From Deltaproteobacteria bacterium RIFOXYA12_FULL_61_11 (GTDB lineage Bacteria; Bdellovibrionota_F; JAHFAK01; YA12-FULL-61-11): 7,630 bases of DNA. Below the pieces are notes generated by a model that saw only the letters and a list, made by a program, of their open reading frames with translations, was not told the DNA's origin and did no database searches. Positions 1,800 through 7,630 of the stretch are shown one piece after another. Where the stretch lies: NCBI GenBank assembly GCA_001799195.1, contig MGSU01000210.1:1-7630 (forward strand), read 5' to 3'. The translations under genes and the position numbers were made by a program. Within the stretch, counting starts at the first letter, position 1; every line of letters starts with the position of its first letter.

Positions 1800-2321
1800 A
1801 TGGTCAGAACCCTTCTCCTCTGGTTCCTCATCGCTCACCTCCCGGGCGGTCTCCGGGCCGAGACCATCCTCACGCTCGACGGGACCAAGGTCGAGGGCAC
1901 GGTGGTGGAGTACACCTCCACGCACGTCGTCGTGCAACGCGACGGGGCGAGGATCACCCTGCCCAAGGCCCAGATCGAGAGGATCGAGGTCAATGCCCAC
2001 CGTCCCGATGCCCGGCTCGGCACGCCGGAAGGCACCCTGAACCTGTGGATCGACGCGGCCCGGAAGCTCGATTCCGAGGGCATGCTGCGTTGCTATGTGT
2101 CGGACGCCCAAGCGCAGAAACGCAAGGAGTTCCAGAAGTTCAAAACCGAGGAGCTGCGCCGGATGCAGGCCGATGCGATCAAGACCCGTTTCCATGTCGC
2201 CGAACCGCTCATCATCGGGAACCGGGCCACGGTCAAGGTCGATCGGGAGTTCGGCAAGGCTTCCGAGACCGAGATCTTCGAACTCGTCCTCGAACGCGGG
2301 GAGTGGCGCATCTCGCCCTGA
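1800..2321 (+). CDS. Exported protein with Sm/SH3-like N-terminal domain and possible NTF2-like C-terminal domain
   Basis: I do not recognise a named gene. The 173-residue product starts with a Sec-type signal peptide: MVR, a hydrophobic core (LLLWFLIAHL) and probable cleavage after LRA at residue 20, so it should act outside the cytoplasm. There is no lipobox cysteine. Residues about 22-64 (TLDGTKVEGTVVEYTSTHVV, then ITLPKAQIERIEV) form a compact beta pattern like the small Sm/SH3-like barrels common at the start of secreted Planctomycete and deltaproteobacterial-type proteins. Residues about 76-172 run helix-helix-strands: TPEGTLNLWIDAARKLD, a basic helix, then RATVKVDREFG and IFELVLERGEWRIS. 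This resembles DUF4878/NTF2-like domains that bind small ligands or stabilise envelope complexes. The ATG has only a distant GAGG, 11 bases upstream. The gene stands alone, diverging from the minus-strand operon. Function is unknown. Confidence 0.75.
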   Translation: MVRTLLLWFLIAHLPGGLRAETILTLDGTKVEGTVVEYTSTHVVVQRDGARITLPKAQIERIEVNAHRPDARLGTPEGTLNLWIDAARKLDSEGMLRCYVSDAQAQKRKEFQKFKTEELRRMQADAIKTRFHVAEPLIIGNRATVKVDREFGKASETEIFELVLERGEWRISP

Positions 2322-2628: not shown

Positions 2629-5442
2629 ATGTACATCCCACGGTTGCGCCGTGACTTCGAATTGGCCACTATCGATGAGAACCTCCATGTTCTCAAGAGC
2701 ATCCGGGTCACACGCTATCTCGAAATGAGCGCCGAGGAGTACTTCGTCTTCACCAGCATCGACGGCAAGGCCGACCTCGAGGACATCGCCGTCCGCTTCT
2801 ATGAACGGTTCAAGTACATCGGGCACAATGAAATCGTCAATCTGTTGATAAAATTATACGAATACAAGCTCCTAGAAGAGGAACCGCCGAACTACATCGC
2901 TACCCGGCAGGTCCGCGGCGGACTCTCCCGCTTGGGAGACCAGTTGGTCCACCACCTCGACCTGACCCTCGTGGGCAAGGTGCTGCGTTACTCGCCCCTG
3001 CGCCTCCTCTATGTCCTACCCGTGTTCGTGGTTCTGCTCCTCGCCTCGCTCGCGACCGCGGTCGGTTTCATCCTCTTCCTCGATACCCGCACCTATCAAC
3101 TCTTCTCCTTCCAACAGGGCTTGGCCGCGAACATTACCCTCGATCTCGGGCTCTTCTATGGTCTCCTGGCCTGGTATTGTCTGGGAAAACTCGCCGCGCT
3201 CGGGGCCTACGACCGACAGGTCAACGGGTTCCAGGTCCGGTTGATCGGCGTAATTCCCTGGCTCAGCGTGGATACCAGCGACATCCTGATGACGGGGTTG
3301 CGAGGCCGCTTGACCACGGCCCTCTCCGGCAGCTATCTCCTCCTCCTGACCGCCATGGCCGGGGCCCTGCATCTGCTGATCGGCCAGTACTTCCCGGATT
3401 ACCTGCCGGACTTCCTGCGCAAGGAACTCCTGTTCGACCTGTCTTACAAGGTCAGCATCCTGGCGTATCTCCTGGTCTTCTTCAAGCTCTCGCCCTTCTA
3501 TCCGAGCGATGGATTGACCGCCTTCACCGAACTCTTCCATTTCCACACCGAACGGGCCAAGATCCTGCACTACCTCAAATCCATGCTCGTCCTCCGCAAG
3601 AGCAGTGGAGAGAAACGTGAGGATCGCGAGAGCCTTCGGCACGAACTCGGACTCTCGCTCGGCGCGACCTGGTCCATCGCGTACTTCTTCGGCTTCCTCA
3701 AGATCATGTCCTTCCTCATCAACAGCGAGGCAAAACTGGTCTTCCAGCGTCTGATCTTCGCCGACGACCTCTCCACGCGGGTCGTCTCGACCATCATCAT
3801 GGCCCTGATCTTCTTGCCGCCCCTCTTCCTGCTCGTGTATCTCTTCTATGCGGTCGAGGCTTGGTTGTTGCGCATGGCGTTGCGGCACAAAGCCTGGTTG
3901 TTGGCCCTGCTGTTGCAACCCGCCCTCGTCTCGTATGTCGCACCCTTCCCCGTGGCCTTCCCCCTCTATTGGACCCTCAGCCTCGTCTTGCTGGTCGCCG
4001 TCTTCCTGGCGGGCCGTCGTATCGGCTATTTCCCCAGTCTGGCCGAACGCTGGTCCCTCCTGACCGTATTCTTGGCCCTCTCCACCATCGCGATCCTGAC
4101 CTTGCTCGGCCTCAATACCATGGAAGTCGAGCGGCAGTACCTCTTGGGCGGTTTCGTCTGGCTCTGCCTGCTCACCTGTTTCTTGCTGGTCCGAACGTAT
4201 CGCTATCGTCAGGGCAAGCTCTTCGAGTCCTCCTTCTTCCAGGCCATCGCCGCGCTCAGCCTCTTTCCCGTCTTTTTCGTGCCCGACCCCTGGTTGCTCT
4301 GCTTGCCGGTGATCTCCTTACTCCTCCAACTCTTCGCCCTGCGCGATCTCTTCGCCACGCTCGCCGAATTACCCGCTCCAAAACTCAGCGTTTCGGCGCA
4401 GGACAACGGGGAGGTTTTGTGGCTTGCGTTGCTCGCGGAGCTCGGTCGGACCATCATCGGCCGCTGGGACGATCGCCTGGCCTCGGGCGTCGACGCCTTC
4501 AAGTTCCTCGAAGGACACCTCGGGTTGCACCTCGCCCGTTACCTGGCGTTGAGGGCCGGGCACGGACTACCCCTGTACCAGGCCTTCACCCTGCAACAGG
4601 ACGTGATCGAACCCTCCCGCCTCCCGCTGACCCTCTGTACCCACCGTAACCTGCAATCCCTGGAGAACCTGATCAAACGGATACCGCTGTTCGCGAGAGC
4701 CGAGGGGGAGGAGTTGACCATCCTGCTCAAGCACCTCAAGTCCATGGAGTGGGCTCGCGGCCAGTACATCCTGCGCGAAGGAGAGTCCGGGGACCAGTTC
4801 TTCGCCATCCAGGAAGGGGTGGTCGATATCTACAAAAAGGATCGCTATGGGTACGATACCAAGATCGGTACCCTCTTCGAAGGCGATTGTTTCGGCGAGA
4901 TCGCCCTACTCGAACACACGACGAGGCAGGCCACGGTCATCGCCCAGATTCCGACCACCTTGCTGTACCTCGACCGAGGCCCCTTCAACTACCTGATCGA
5001 ACAGTATCCGGGAATGAGGACCAAGCTGCTCTCGACCCTCCATCGGGCCAATCTCTTGCGCAGCGTCAGTATTTTCCATTCCCTGACCAGTACCCAGATC
5101 TTCTCCCTGGCCTCCAAGGCGGAGGAACGCAACAGCGTCGAAGGCGACGTCGTCATTCGCGAGGGCGAGGAGGGCCGGGAGTTCTTCGTCATCACCAGGG
5201 GCAAGTTCGAGGTCACCCGCGGCGGACAGGTGCTGACCATGCTGGGCGAGCGGAACTTCTTCGGGGAGATCGCCCTGCTCAAGGAGGTCAGCCGGACGGC
5301 TACGGTCAGCGCAAAGGCCGAGGGGGAACTCCTCGTCATCCAGAAAGCGGAATTCCTCCAGGCCATGTCCTCCAATACTACCCTGAGCGCAAAACTGCGC
5401 GAGATCACCTCCGACCGGCAAGGAGGGAACGGCCATGCTTAA
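2629..5442 (+). CDS. PqqD-like / M50-like (pseudo)protease membrane protein with two cyclic nucleotide-binding domains
   Basis: A 937-residue fusion. Residues about 5-88 resemble a PqqD-like winged helix, the fold used to hold peptides in RiPP maturation (YLEMSAEEYFVFTSIDGKAD is typical). About 12 hydrophobic helices follow between 124 and 572. The order and spacing match M50/peptide zinc metalloprotease relatives. VDTSD (214-218) and SPFYPSDG (288-295) sit where that family has its conserved motifs, but the expected HExxH reads YCLGK (183-187) and no HExxH occurs elsewhere. It is therefore probably not a zinc protease. A linker leads to two cyclic nucleotide-binding domains, about 683-800 and 812-915. 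Each has FGEIALL followed, nine residues after the Glu, by an Arg (E757/R766; E880/R889), the ligand-phosphate cassette of CAP and PKA. The ATG has GAGG six bases upstream. The stop overlaps the next gene by 8 nt. The M50 relationship is inferred by eye; the nucleotide-binding domains are clear. Confidence 0.85.
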   Translation: MYIPRLRRDFELATIDENLHVLKSIRVTRYLEMSAEEYFVFTSIDGKADLEDIAVRFYERFKYIGHNEIVNLLIKLYEYKLLEEEPPNYIATRQVRGGLSRLGDQLVHHLDLTLVGKVLRYSPLRLLYVLPVFVVLLLASLATAVGFILFLDTRTYQLFSFQQGLAANITLDLGLFYGLLAWYCLGKLAALGAYDRQVNGFQVRLIGVIPWLSVDTSDILMTGLRGRLTTALSGSYLLLLTAMAGALHLLIGQYFPDYLPDFLRKELLFDLSYKVSILAYLLVFFKLSPFYPSDGLTAFTELFHFHTERAKILHYLKSMLVLRKSSGEKREDRESLRHELGLSLGATWSIAYFFGFLKIMSFLINSEAKLVFQRLIFADDLSTRVVSTIIMALIFLPPLFLLVYLFYAVEAWLLRMALRHKAWLLALLLQPALVSYVAPFPVAFPLYWTLSLVLLVAVFLAGRRIGYFPSLAERWSLLTVFLALSTIAILTLLGLNTMEVERQYLLGGFVWLCLLTCFLLVRTYRYRQGKLFESSFFQAIAALSLFPVFFVPDPWLLCLPVISLLLQLFALRDLFATLAELPAPKLSVSAQDNGEVLWLALLAELGRTIIGRWDDRLASGVDAFKFLEGHLGLHLARYLALRAGHGLPLYQAFTLQQDVIEPSRLPLTLCTHRNLQSLENLIKRIPLFARAEGEELTILLKHLKSMEWARGQYILREGESGDQFFAIQEGVVDIYKKDRYGYDTKIGTLFEGDCFGEIALLEHTTRQATVIAQIPTTLLYLDRGPFNYLIEQYPGMRTKLLSTLHRANLLRSVSIFHSLTSTQIFSLASKAEERNSVEGDVVIREGEEGREFFVITRGKFEVTRGGQVLTMLGERNFFGEIALLKEVSRTATVSAKAEGELLVIQKAEFLQAMSSNTTLSAKLREITSDRQGGNGHA

Positions 5443-5821
5443 ACTCCTGCTCAAGCTGATGCCCGTCGCCGCGATAGCCGTGGGTGTCGTCAATGGCAAA
5501 CAGGTCGGTCTGGATGCCTTCTCCGCGATCACGGACATGGTCTACATCAGCCAGATGCGCGGCCGGTTGGCGATCATCAACACGGCGCTGGTGTCCGATC
5601 AGTTGACCAAGCCCGGTTGGTACCCCCGGGATTTCAAGGCCTATATACACGAGGTGTGCAAGATCACGGGCGGCGGCGATTGCAGCGTCGATCCCTGGGG
5701 CAAGGACGTGAGCCTGTTCGTGGATCCGCGAGGGGAATTCTTCGAGATCTTCTCGCCGGGACCGGACAGTGAACCCGAGACCGAGGACGACATTTTCCTC
5801 CAGACCTCCCTGGAACGCTGA
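5435..5821 (+). CDS. Small membrane-anchored/exported protein with GspG-like (pseudopilin-type) C-terminal module
   Basis: The 128-residue product starts MLKLLLKLMPVAAIAVGVV, a hydrophobic segment that could be a membrane anchor or uncleaved signal. It lacks the prepilin peptidase motif (GFxLxE) of true pseudopilins. The C-terminal half has WYPRDFKAYI, a pair of cysteines (C75 and C83, perhaps a disulfide), DPWGKDVSLFV and FFEIFSPGPDSEPETEDDI. This closely follows the NPWG...SxGPDG...TxDDI end of GspG, where the acidic loop binds calcium. AGGAGG eight bases before the ATG is an excellent ribosome-binding site. The ATG lies inside the last codons of the cyclic-nucleotide-binding gene, an 8-nt overlap that argues for translational coupling and a shared function. 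It may be a periplasm-facing partner of that membrane protein. A role in type II secretion is not supported, as no other secretion genes are present. Confidence 0.75.
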   Translation: MLKLLLKLMPVAAIAVGVVNGKQVGLDAFSAITDMVYISQMRGRLAIINTALVSDQLTKPGWYPRDFKAYIHEVCKITGGGDCSVDPWGKDVSLFVDPRGEFFEIFSPGPDSEPETEDDIFLQTSLER

Positions 5822-6002: not shown

Positions 6003-7630
6003 TTACCGAACACAACAGACCGAACCGAAGGCCGTCTTCCTCTGGGGAATGAGGGTTCCGTCCTCCATCGAGATGGTCCAGGCCGTGTCCGGACGAGAAG
6101 CCTCCGTGGTCGAGGTCCAGAATACCGGAGCGCTGGCCGCGAGCGAAAACTCTAGGAAGGCCGCGGCGTCGAAGGGATTGGGATCCTGTTCGAGTTGGAG
6201 GATACTCTCCAGTTCGCGGATGCCCGGGACTCGCCAGCCGGTCTTGCCATCGAGTTCCAGACCGGCGCAGTACTCAAAGGCCCCTGCCCAGGTCTTGCGT
6301 TCCGCCTTGTTGTCGACTTGCCATTCCAGACCCCAGTCGCGATCGAGGACGGCCGTATTGGAAACATTGCGTTGAAAACTGCCCTGGCGCCGGGCTGCCC
6401 AAGGGGCTCCCGCCACGCAGAGCACCGCGCCCGGTCTGTCGGCATCGGCGCTCTCGATCCCGACAGGATGGAATCGCACGGCCCAGAAGTCGGCCTTGTC
6501 CGTGACCAGGACCTCCGAGGTCCAGAACCAGGCCTGGTCGGTACTCGGGTCCTTCTCGAGGGCTAGGCCGAGGAGCGTGTTCTCGGCACCGAAGGAGGCG
6601 ACCGAGAGCAACTCCCGGCGGCTGGGCAAGCGCCACTGCTCGCCGCTCTCGGTGACCAGGGCCTTGCAGATCATCGCGGCCGCGTGTTGGGTGGCCTCTG
6701 TTTCCACCTGCTTGACCGCCCAGCGCAGTCCGGTGTCACCGTCATGCAGTATCCCTCCCTCGGCCTGTTCCAGAGCGCGGGGAGGGGCGCCTTTTGCGGC
6801 CTCCTGGGCAGGGTATCGTGCCGCGATCTCGGCGCACTCCCGGGTCGTGGTCTCGTCGTAGCACGTCTTCAGCCCGCTCGCCGGCAAGCGCGGAGGGGCG
6901 ACCACTTCCACCTTCACCTCGGCCGAAACCGTGAGGGAAGGATTGCCGTTATCGCGGACCGAGACGGTGAAGGTAGAGGTTTGCCCGACCGCGGCCGAGG
7001 TCGGGGCGAATACGAGGTATTGGTGGAGTTGCTCGGCGAAGGAGGGGAGACCCTCGACCGAGAGGAAGAGCGCGTCCTGGTCCTCGTCCTCGGCTGCGAC
7101 GGTCAAGAAGGTCTCGACCCCGGGATAGGCCTGGTAGTGTTGCGCCAGGTTGAGTGTCGGTGTCCGATTGGGTTGACCCGCGAGGTCGACTTTGTCCTTG
7201 AGGAAGAGCAGCGGTTCCTCGCCGAGCGAGAGTTGGAGGAAGTTCCGGTAGGTGGTGGAGAAGACGAGTACGTCCAGAGTAGGGGCGGTCAGTTCGCCGC
7301 TGAGTGGACAGAACAGGTACAGGCCTTCCCGTAGGGCGACCGTCTGATCGAGGTGGCGGCAACGCACCTTGTGGACCGCACCATCGGCCTCACGGACGAT
7401 CAGGAGCGCCACCAGATACGTTGCGTCGCTCTCGATCGTCTGGTGCTTGTGCTGCATCTTTCCTACAGAAGGTTCGAGGCCGATCAGTTGGTAGCCGTGC
7501 TCGACCCGAGGATTCGAGGGCAGGGCGCTCGCAGGAATCAAGAGAGAGGGCACGACACTGAGTGGCAGTGTGACCGACCCGAGTTGCTCGAGACTGAACG
7601 CTTGCAATAAGCGAGTGGCGGGAATGGCTC
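6003..7630 (-). CDS. Secreted/surface-type protein with an Ig/cadherin-like domain and two DUF1566 (Lcl C-terminal) domains, 5'-truncated
   Basis: The frame stays open to the right edge, so the start and any signal peptide lie outside. A TTG at 7607 has no ribosome-binding site and is unlikely to be the start. From the first complete codon in the window the fragment has 541 residues. Residues about 157-242 (TVAAEDEDQDALFLSVEGLP, then STFTVSVRDNGNP) are an Ig/cadherin-like fold typical of adhesins and surface proteins. A linker with two cysteines (KTCYDETTTREC) follows. Two DUF1566 domains come next: about 295-405 with WRLPSRREL, FWTSE and VLCV, and about 430-541 with WRVPGIREL, FWTSTT and the terminal VCCVR. 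DUF1566 lies within the C-type-lectin-like fold group and is common in exported proteins of unknown ligand. The gene converges on tRNA-Gly with 39 nt between them. Function is unknown, but an extracellular or surface role is likely. Confidence 0.85.
   Translation of the reverse strand, partial: AIPATRLLQAFSLEQLGSVTLPLSVVPSLLIPASALPSNPRVEHGYQLIGLEPSVGKMQHKHQTIESDATYLVALLIVREADGAVHKVRCRHLDQTVALREGLYLFCPLSGELTAPTLDVLVFSTTYRNFLQLSLGEEPLLFLKDKVDLAGQPNRTPTLNLAQHYQAYPGVETFLTVAAEDEDQDALFLSVEGLPSFAEQLHQYLVFAPTSAAVGQTSTFTVSVRDNGNPSLTVSAEVKVEVVAPPRLPASGLKTCYDETTTRECAEIAARYPAQEAAKGAPPRALEQAEGGILHDGDTGLRWAVKQVETEATQHAAAMICKALVTESGEQWRLPSRRELLSVASFGAENTLLGLALEKDPSTDQAWFWTSEVLVTDKADFWAVRFHPVGIESADADRPGAVLCVAGAPWAARRQGSFQRNVSNTAVLDRDWGLEWQVDNKAERKTWAGAFEYCAGLELDGKTGWRVPGIRELESILQLEQDPNPFDAAAFLEFSLAASAPVFWTSTTEASRPDTAWTISMEDGTLIPQRKTAFGSVCCVR

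Follow-up and report, generated by a model that had tools for sequence, protein, structure and literature searches.

The locus and its overlapping gene pair

The window, that is, the whole stretch of 7,630 nucleotides that was analysed, carries on its forward strand a gene for a predicted membrane pseudoprotease, whose last bases are shared with the start of a gene for a small GspG-like protein (Table 1). The open reading frame named in the original prediction is present with its ATG start, the motifs YCLGK, VDTSD and PSDG lie at the residues it gave, and its roughly 12 hydrophobic helices correspond to ∼12–13 separate Kyte-Doolittle peaks between residues 130 and 570. The two C-terminal CNB domains it placed there were recovered by Pfam PF00027 as two stretches (E = 2.4e-39). 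When the protein was scanned directly, Pfam and NCBIfam returned CNB-type matches only, with no transporter family among them, and profile methods were therefore needed.

Two aminotransferase genes occupy positions 1–1102 of the reverse strand, a class III gene cut by the contig edge and a class IV gene at 209–1102. The gene at 1800–2321 (+), ∼307 bases before the pseudoprotease gene, encodes a probably secreted protein of 173 residues that shows weak N-terminal similarity to Leptospira LA_0442-type domains. Convergent to the pair is a gene at 6003–7628 (−) for a protein with two Lcl_C domains. The 4.6-Mb genome G000 gave ∼135 radical SAM matches, seemingly many.

Table 1. Features of the pseudoprotease gene and its partner in the window.
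Feature	Positions	Strand	Evidence
Pseudoprotease gene, 937 aa, ATG start	2629..5442	+	homologues found
PqqD-like (RiPP-recognition-like) winged-helix domain, ∼residues 17–90	2677..2898	+	PF05402 in 3/8 relatives; 3g2b Z 6.2
M50/S2P-like core, ∼residues 120–320	2986..3588	+	profile built from relatives only, E = 2.8e-25, residues 17–320
YCLGK (183–187) replacing HExxH	3175..3189	+	profile columns; HExxH absent from protein
VDTSD (214–218), conserved family motif	3268..3282	+	profile alignment
PSDG (292–295), Asp on LDGY Asp (third zinc ligand of intact members)	3502..3513	+	profile alignment
Extra hydrophobic segments, ∼residues 345–570	3661..4338	+	hydropathy; intact long relatives similarly longer
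CNB domain 1, ∼residues 684–800, cassette FGEIALLEHTTRQATV starting at residue 755	4678..5028	+	Pfam and alignment
CNB domain 2, ∼residues 806–925, cassette FGEIALLKEVSRTATV starting at residue 878	5044..5403	+	Pfam and alignment
8-base overlap of pseudoprotease and partner frames (ATGCTTAA)	5435..5442	+	reading frames
Partner gene, 128 aa, hydrophobic helix (residues 1–19) and GspG-like domain, no prepilin motif	5435..5821	+	
Partner GspG-like calcium-loop region DPWG...SPGPD....TEDDI, residues 84–122	5684..5800	+	weak T2SSG match, GspG alignment, profile

The M50-like core, the N-terminal domain and the CNB sensors

With the window protein left out, a profile was built from 16 relatives that are not pseudoproteases (14 with HExxH, and those of G085 and G269). 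It matched residues 17–320 of the window protein at E = 2.8e-25; the best shuffled sequence reached 0.011. Because the match was obtained with a profile free of the window protein itself, descent of the protein from the M50 family is firm, despite an unusable structure model (mean pLDDT of 45 for the core, low confidence; the match list held no M50 chain, which speaks neither for nor against the fold). YCLGK occupies the very columns of HExxH when aligned to the profile, VDTSD lines up with VDSSD, and the aspartate of PSDG with that of LDGY; the match together with this placement bears out the predicted M50-like core without HExxH. With regard to the features of an active M50 protease, HExxH is missing and the third-ligand aspartate of the LDG-type motif is present. 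HExxH occurs nowhere in the 937 residues. The sole 'HE', at 338 within RHELGL (337–342), was considered as an alternative zinc site and ruled out, as no second histidine is in place.

The intact relatives match models of S2P proteases of RiPP maturation (daptide protease and YydH/LiaK). Five of eight aligned relatives matched NF041824, the daptide intramembrane metalloprotease (best 1.5e-39), and NF058609, YydH/LiaK (best 3.3e-18); the window protein matched neither model. The PqqD-like N-terminus of the original prediction gained some support from PF05402, which three of the eight aligned relatives reach (best 1.7e-4) and the window protein itself does not, and from middling matches of a low-confidence model: PqqD 3g2b at Z 6.2 over 55 residues, the lasso-peptide B1 domain 6jx3 at Z 5.6 and other winged helices at Z 5. 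The N-terminal domain resembles PqqD and RiPP recognition elements. The window contains no genes for a RiPP precursor peptide or modifying enzyme.

The cassette glutamate and arginine of CNB domains contact the nucleotide. Both residues are kept in both CNBs of the window protein and of every full-length pseudoprotease, which agrees with the earlier claim of two nucleotide sensors. Among solved structures, the best matches of the tandem CNB were PKG (E = 4.6e-37) and the PKA regulatory subunits (8.9e-29). All 16 genomes checked encode class III nucleotide cyclases, and the window's own genome gave nine matches. The tandem CNB is predicted to bind nucleotide. A search of an anti-phage library matched the CNB region to Pycsar proteins only and was not counted as evidence for defence.

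Relatives without HExxH and the small partner

The phylum of the window protein is represented by two genomes in the searched set. The sole other genome of its class, G001, encodes a full-length relative with intact HELAH, VDSSDM and LDGYY motifs; its domains follow the same order and end in two CNBs. A profile from such relatives found ∼45 clear members in 386 genomes. HExxH is combined with two C-terminal CNBs in proteins of ∼1000–1140 residues from G001, G088, G130, G267, G060 and G201; shorter members carry N-terminal CNBs together with HExxH (G131, G127) or QELGH (G269), and many family members have no CNB, nearly all of these with HExxH.

The original prediction had named orthologues likewise devoid of HExxH as what would support it, and such orthologues were found in three further lineages, namely, 16 UBP6 genomes, G030/G312 and G044/G189. 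Two C-terminal CNBs accompany RAFIK in G044, EALTR in G189, SKNLF in G030 and PAVCS or PAIFS in the UBP6 pseudoproteases at the site occupied by YCLGK in the window protein. The HExxH-less form is present in 16 of 28 genomes of UBP6, the phylum Candidatus Asafiota (PMC11382960), and the named UBP6 loci are mostly of ruminant-gut origin. In the named genomes scanned, the window protein had no relative, and no protein closely related to it is known. An altered site, HQLVH, is also found in G085 on a protein with no fused CNB, and L132 (G057) deviates as well. In G085 a separate single-CNB gene lies beside the HQLVH relative (L056, 7037–7525 and 7183–8742), possibly another partly degenerate form.

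Purifying selection on the UBP6 copies is strong, with dN/dS of ∼0.1 for the dead core; among close UBP6 species the values were 0.08–0.11 for the dead core, 0.02–0.05 for the CNBs and 0.05–0.09 for the partner. Because of the HExxH-less orthologues, the kept CNBs and this selection, which was measured on the UBP6 copies, the window protein is read as a conserved pseudoprotease and not as a product of decay. In a tree of the core, all 11 sampled pseudoproteases lie on one side of a branch (99/98) where long branches meet, and the CNB tree recovered that grouping in 47% of bootstrap trees. Since long branches meet at this point and the CNB tree gives no confirmation, a single loss of HExxH is not claimed. 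The core of the window protein matches intact relatives better than it matches the UBP6 pseudoproteases. The partner shared by three of the pseudoprotease lineages argues for one ancient pair; HExxH may also have been lost more than once.

The gene next to the pseudoprotease overlaps its stop codon in 18 of 19 testable loci (the window, 16 UBP6 loci and G030; G189 and G312 end at the contig edge), by 4–16 bases, eight in the window. A pair with overlapping frames occurs in three lineages, and in the UBP6 loci and G030 a GGAGG-like ribosome site lies inside the upstream gene. The neighbours of the pair differ between UBP6 genera and the pair itself stays together. Strong matches to the partner (E < 1e-40) came from 5 of the 386 genomes, each adjoining a pseudoprotease; all five genomes contributed to the partner model, so the count speaks for specificity and not for independent discovery, and the other 13 UBP6 loci lie outside the model. 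No partner was found beside the genes of intact relatives, beside the pseudoprotease of G044 (97% complete), or anywhere in the G044 or G189 genomes.

Common to the partner proteins are a hydrophobic helix at the N-terminus and, in the C-terminal part, a D.W with S..D.....DD after it. Six true GspG proteins, no partner among them, gave a profile that matched the window partner at 6.1e-7; UBP6 partners reached 2.3e-11 and 4.3e-9, and the best of 2000 shuffles scored 0.28. The G030 partner scored 0.12 with this profile, which is not significant, and 2.8e-4 with the UBP6 profile. T2SSG matched the window partner weakly. Solved GspG chains top the lists obtained with the partner profile and with a low-confidence AlphaFold model of the partner, results not significant alone; the window partner could be aligned to the GspG chains 29jd and 3g20, its calcium loop being a sequence motif. 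By comparison with GspG structures, the kept DD residues are putative calcium ligands. Changes of the calcium-site aspartates in GspG impair type II secretion (PMC10574481). Against a UBP6-only profile the window partner matched weakly (E = 0.029), and it is closer to true GspG, so that it may have been recruited separately. The prepilin peptidase site and FTLIE-like helix, present in the true GspG matches, are absent from the window partner and its relatives, and ordinary pseudopilus assembly by the partner thus appears unlikely.

Other small genes were noted as well. Downstream of the intact long M50-CNB relatives of G001, G088 and G267 lies a small zinc-ribbon gene (MNC.HC.RPA...C.FCGR..CK.H), unlike the GspG-like neighbour of the pseudoproteases; its sites are just after 11226 in L053, 4437–4649 in L057 and ∼1340 bases downstream of the M50 gene in L095. 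L186 (G270:C247:3340-3606), a weak match of the partner profile, is a single chain that runs from a zinc-finger-like N-terminus through a hydrophobic helix to a GspG-like C-terminal domain, and it resembles a joining of both kinds of small partner.

A possible nucleotide-controlled holder of a small client

The overlap, in three bacterial lineages, of the pseudoprotease gene with one encoding a small membrane protein that resembles pilins suggests an undescribed signalling pair. The reading that we favour, and hold tentatively, is that a pseudoprotease of the PqqD-domain M50 (site-2 protease) family holds the small GspG-like protein as a client under cyclic-nucleotide control. The former M50 substrate groove and the PqqD-like domain on the cytoplasmic side would hold the small protein by its N-terminus and membrane helix. 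The small protein would be a stable client, held instead of cut, and its calcium-loop domain would lie outside the inner membrane. The tandem CNB in the cytoplasm, most like PKA/PKG regulatory modules, would bind cAMP or cGMP and thereby alter the grip of the core, which would control whether the client is exposed, released or assembled. The low-confidence models show no groove detail. Two M50 relatives, EpeP and TglG, have small peptides as their targets (PMC10885120). The original idea of a dead, gated scaffold holding a peptide fits the loss of HExxH, the PqqD-like N-terminus and the kept CNB residues, and the downstream GspG-like gene supplies a candidate client.

Held with more reserve is the further possibility of an undescribed two-gene signalling complex, in which a nucleotide-sensing pseudo-S2P with catalysis long lost might keep a GspG-derived, single-pass calcium-loop protein, the type of substrate it once had, as a permanent subunit, cytoplasmic cAMP or cGMP controlling the pilin-like domain outside the inner membrane. 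A literature search on CNB together with M50/S2P and PqqD turned up no account of this domain architecture. Should the pseudoprotease and the GspG-like protein prove to interact, the pair would constitute a new system. A CNB pseudoprotease family with a constant small partner would show an intramembrane protease turning into a regulated client holder, and the defined two-gene pair allows a direct test of the holder idea.

The resemblance of the partner to GspG could also mean that the pair regulates a type II secretion or type IV pilus machine, with the GspG-like protein contacting or capping the pseudopilus and the membrane protein exerting control. Homology to GspG including the calcium-loop motif, and the occurrence of true GspG in at least two UBP6 genomes (L205, L206), are in favour of such a role, which we nevertheless consider unlikely: the window and the other loci read have no secretion or pilus genes next to the pair, and the partner carries no prepilin motif. 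It is less likely again that the pseudoprotease acts as an iRhom-like decoy, binding single-pass membrane proteins generally and, under nucleotide control, keeping these from active S2Ps, with the partner as one such substrate or a cofactor. Rhomboid pseudoproteases work in this way (PMC3149277), and three other M50 genes score above the Pfam cut-off in the window's genome, but the one constant overlapping partner suggests a dedicated client, not a broad decoy.

The many membrane helices of the window protein, and the view that its M50 relative EpeP cleaves and exports its peptide (PMC10885120), would accord with a nucleotide-gated exporter or transporter of a peptide or other small substrate, docked at the PqqD-like domain; this is improbable given a window with no precursor peptide or modifying enzyme and a protein with no transporter family match. 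The kept VDTSD and aspartate of PSDG speak for a still active peptidase with zinc ligands placed elsewhere, but this is very improbable for a protein with no HExxH and RHELGL as its only 'HE', in a group whose other pseudoproteases differ at the site from it and from each other. Functionless decay of a former protease, to which the long branches of the core tree and the want of a close relative might point, is hardly credible against an open 937-codon frame, intact CNB cassettes, a conserved pair and dN/dS of ∼0.1 in the UBP6 relatives.

The client-holding reading can be set against several known systems. The M50 proteases of RiPP maturation (NF041824, NF058609, EpeP) share the PqqD-like N-terminal region and M50 core of the relatives, whereas the window protein matches neither model, lacks HExxH and has two CNBs in a window without RiPP genes. 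Pseudoproteases of the S2P family are already known from plants; the chloroplast S2P homologue EGY3 is regarded as a conserved pseudoenzyme in the part of the source drawn on here (PMC9355673), which reports it from plants only and mentions no CNB domains or GspG-like partner. The iRhoms are likewise relatives of intramembrane proteases that lost catalysis and turned regulators (PMC3149277), but they are eukaryotic, of another protease fold and free of nucleotide sensors. GspG, the major pseudopilin of type II secretion, shares with the partner the DPWG...SPGPD....TEDDI loop and the order of helices and strands; the partner differs in having no prepilin leader or FTLIE-like motif and in being encoded alone beside the pseudoprotease. 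The regulatory tandem CNBs of PKA and PKG have the same cassette motif and are the best solved-structure matches of the window tandem, which is joined to a bacterial membrane pseudoprotease and no kinase.
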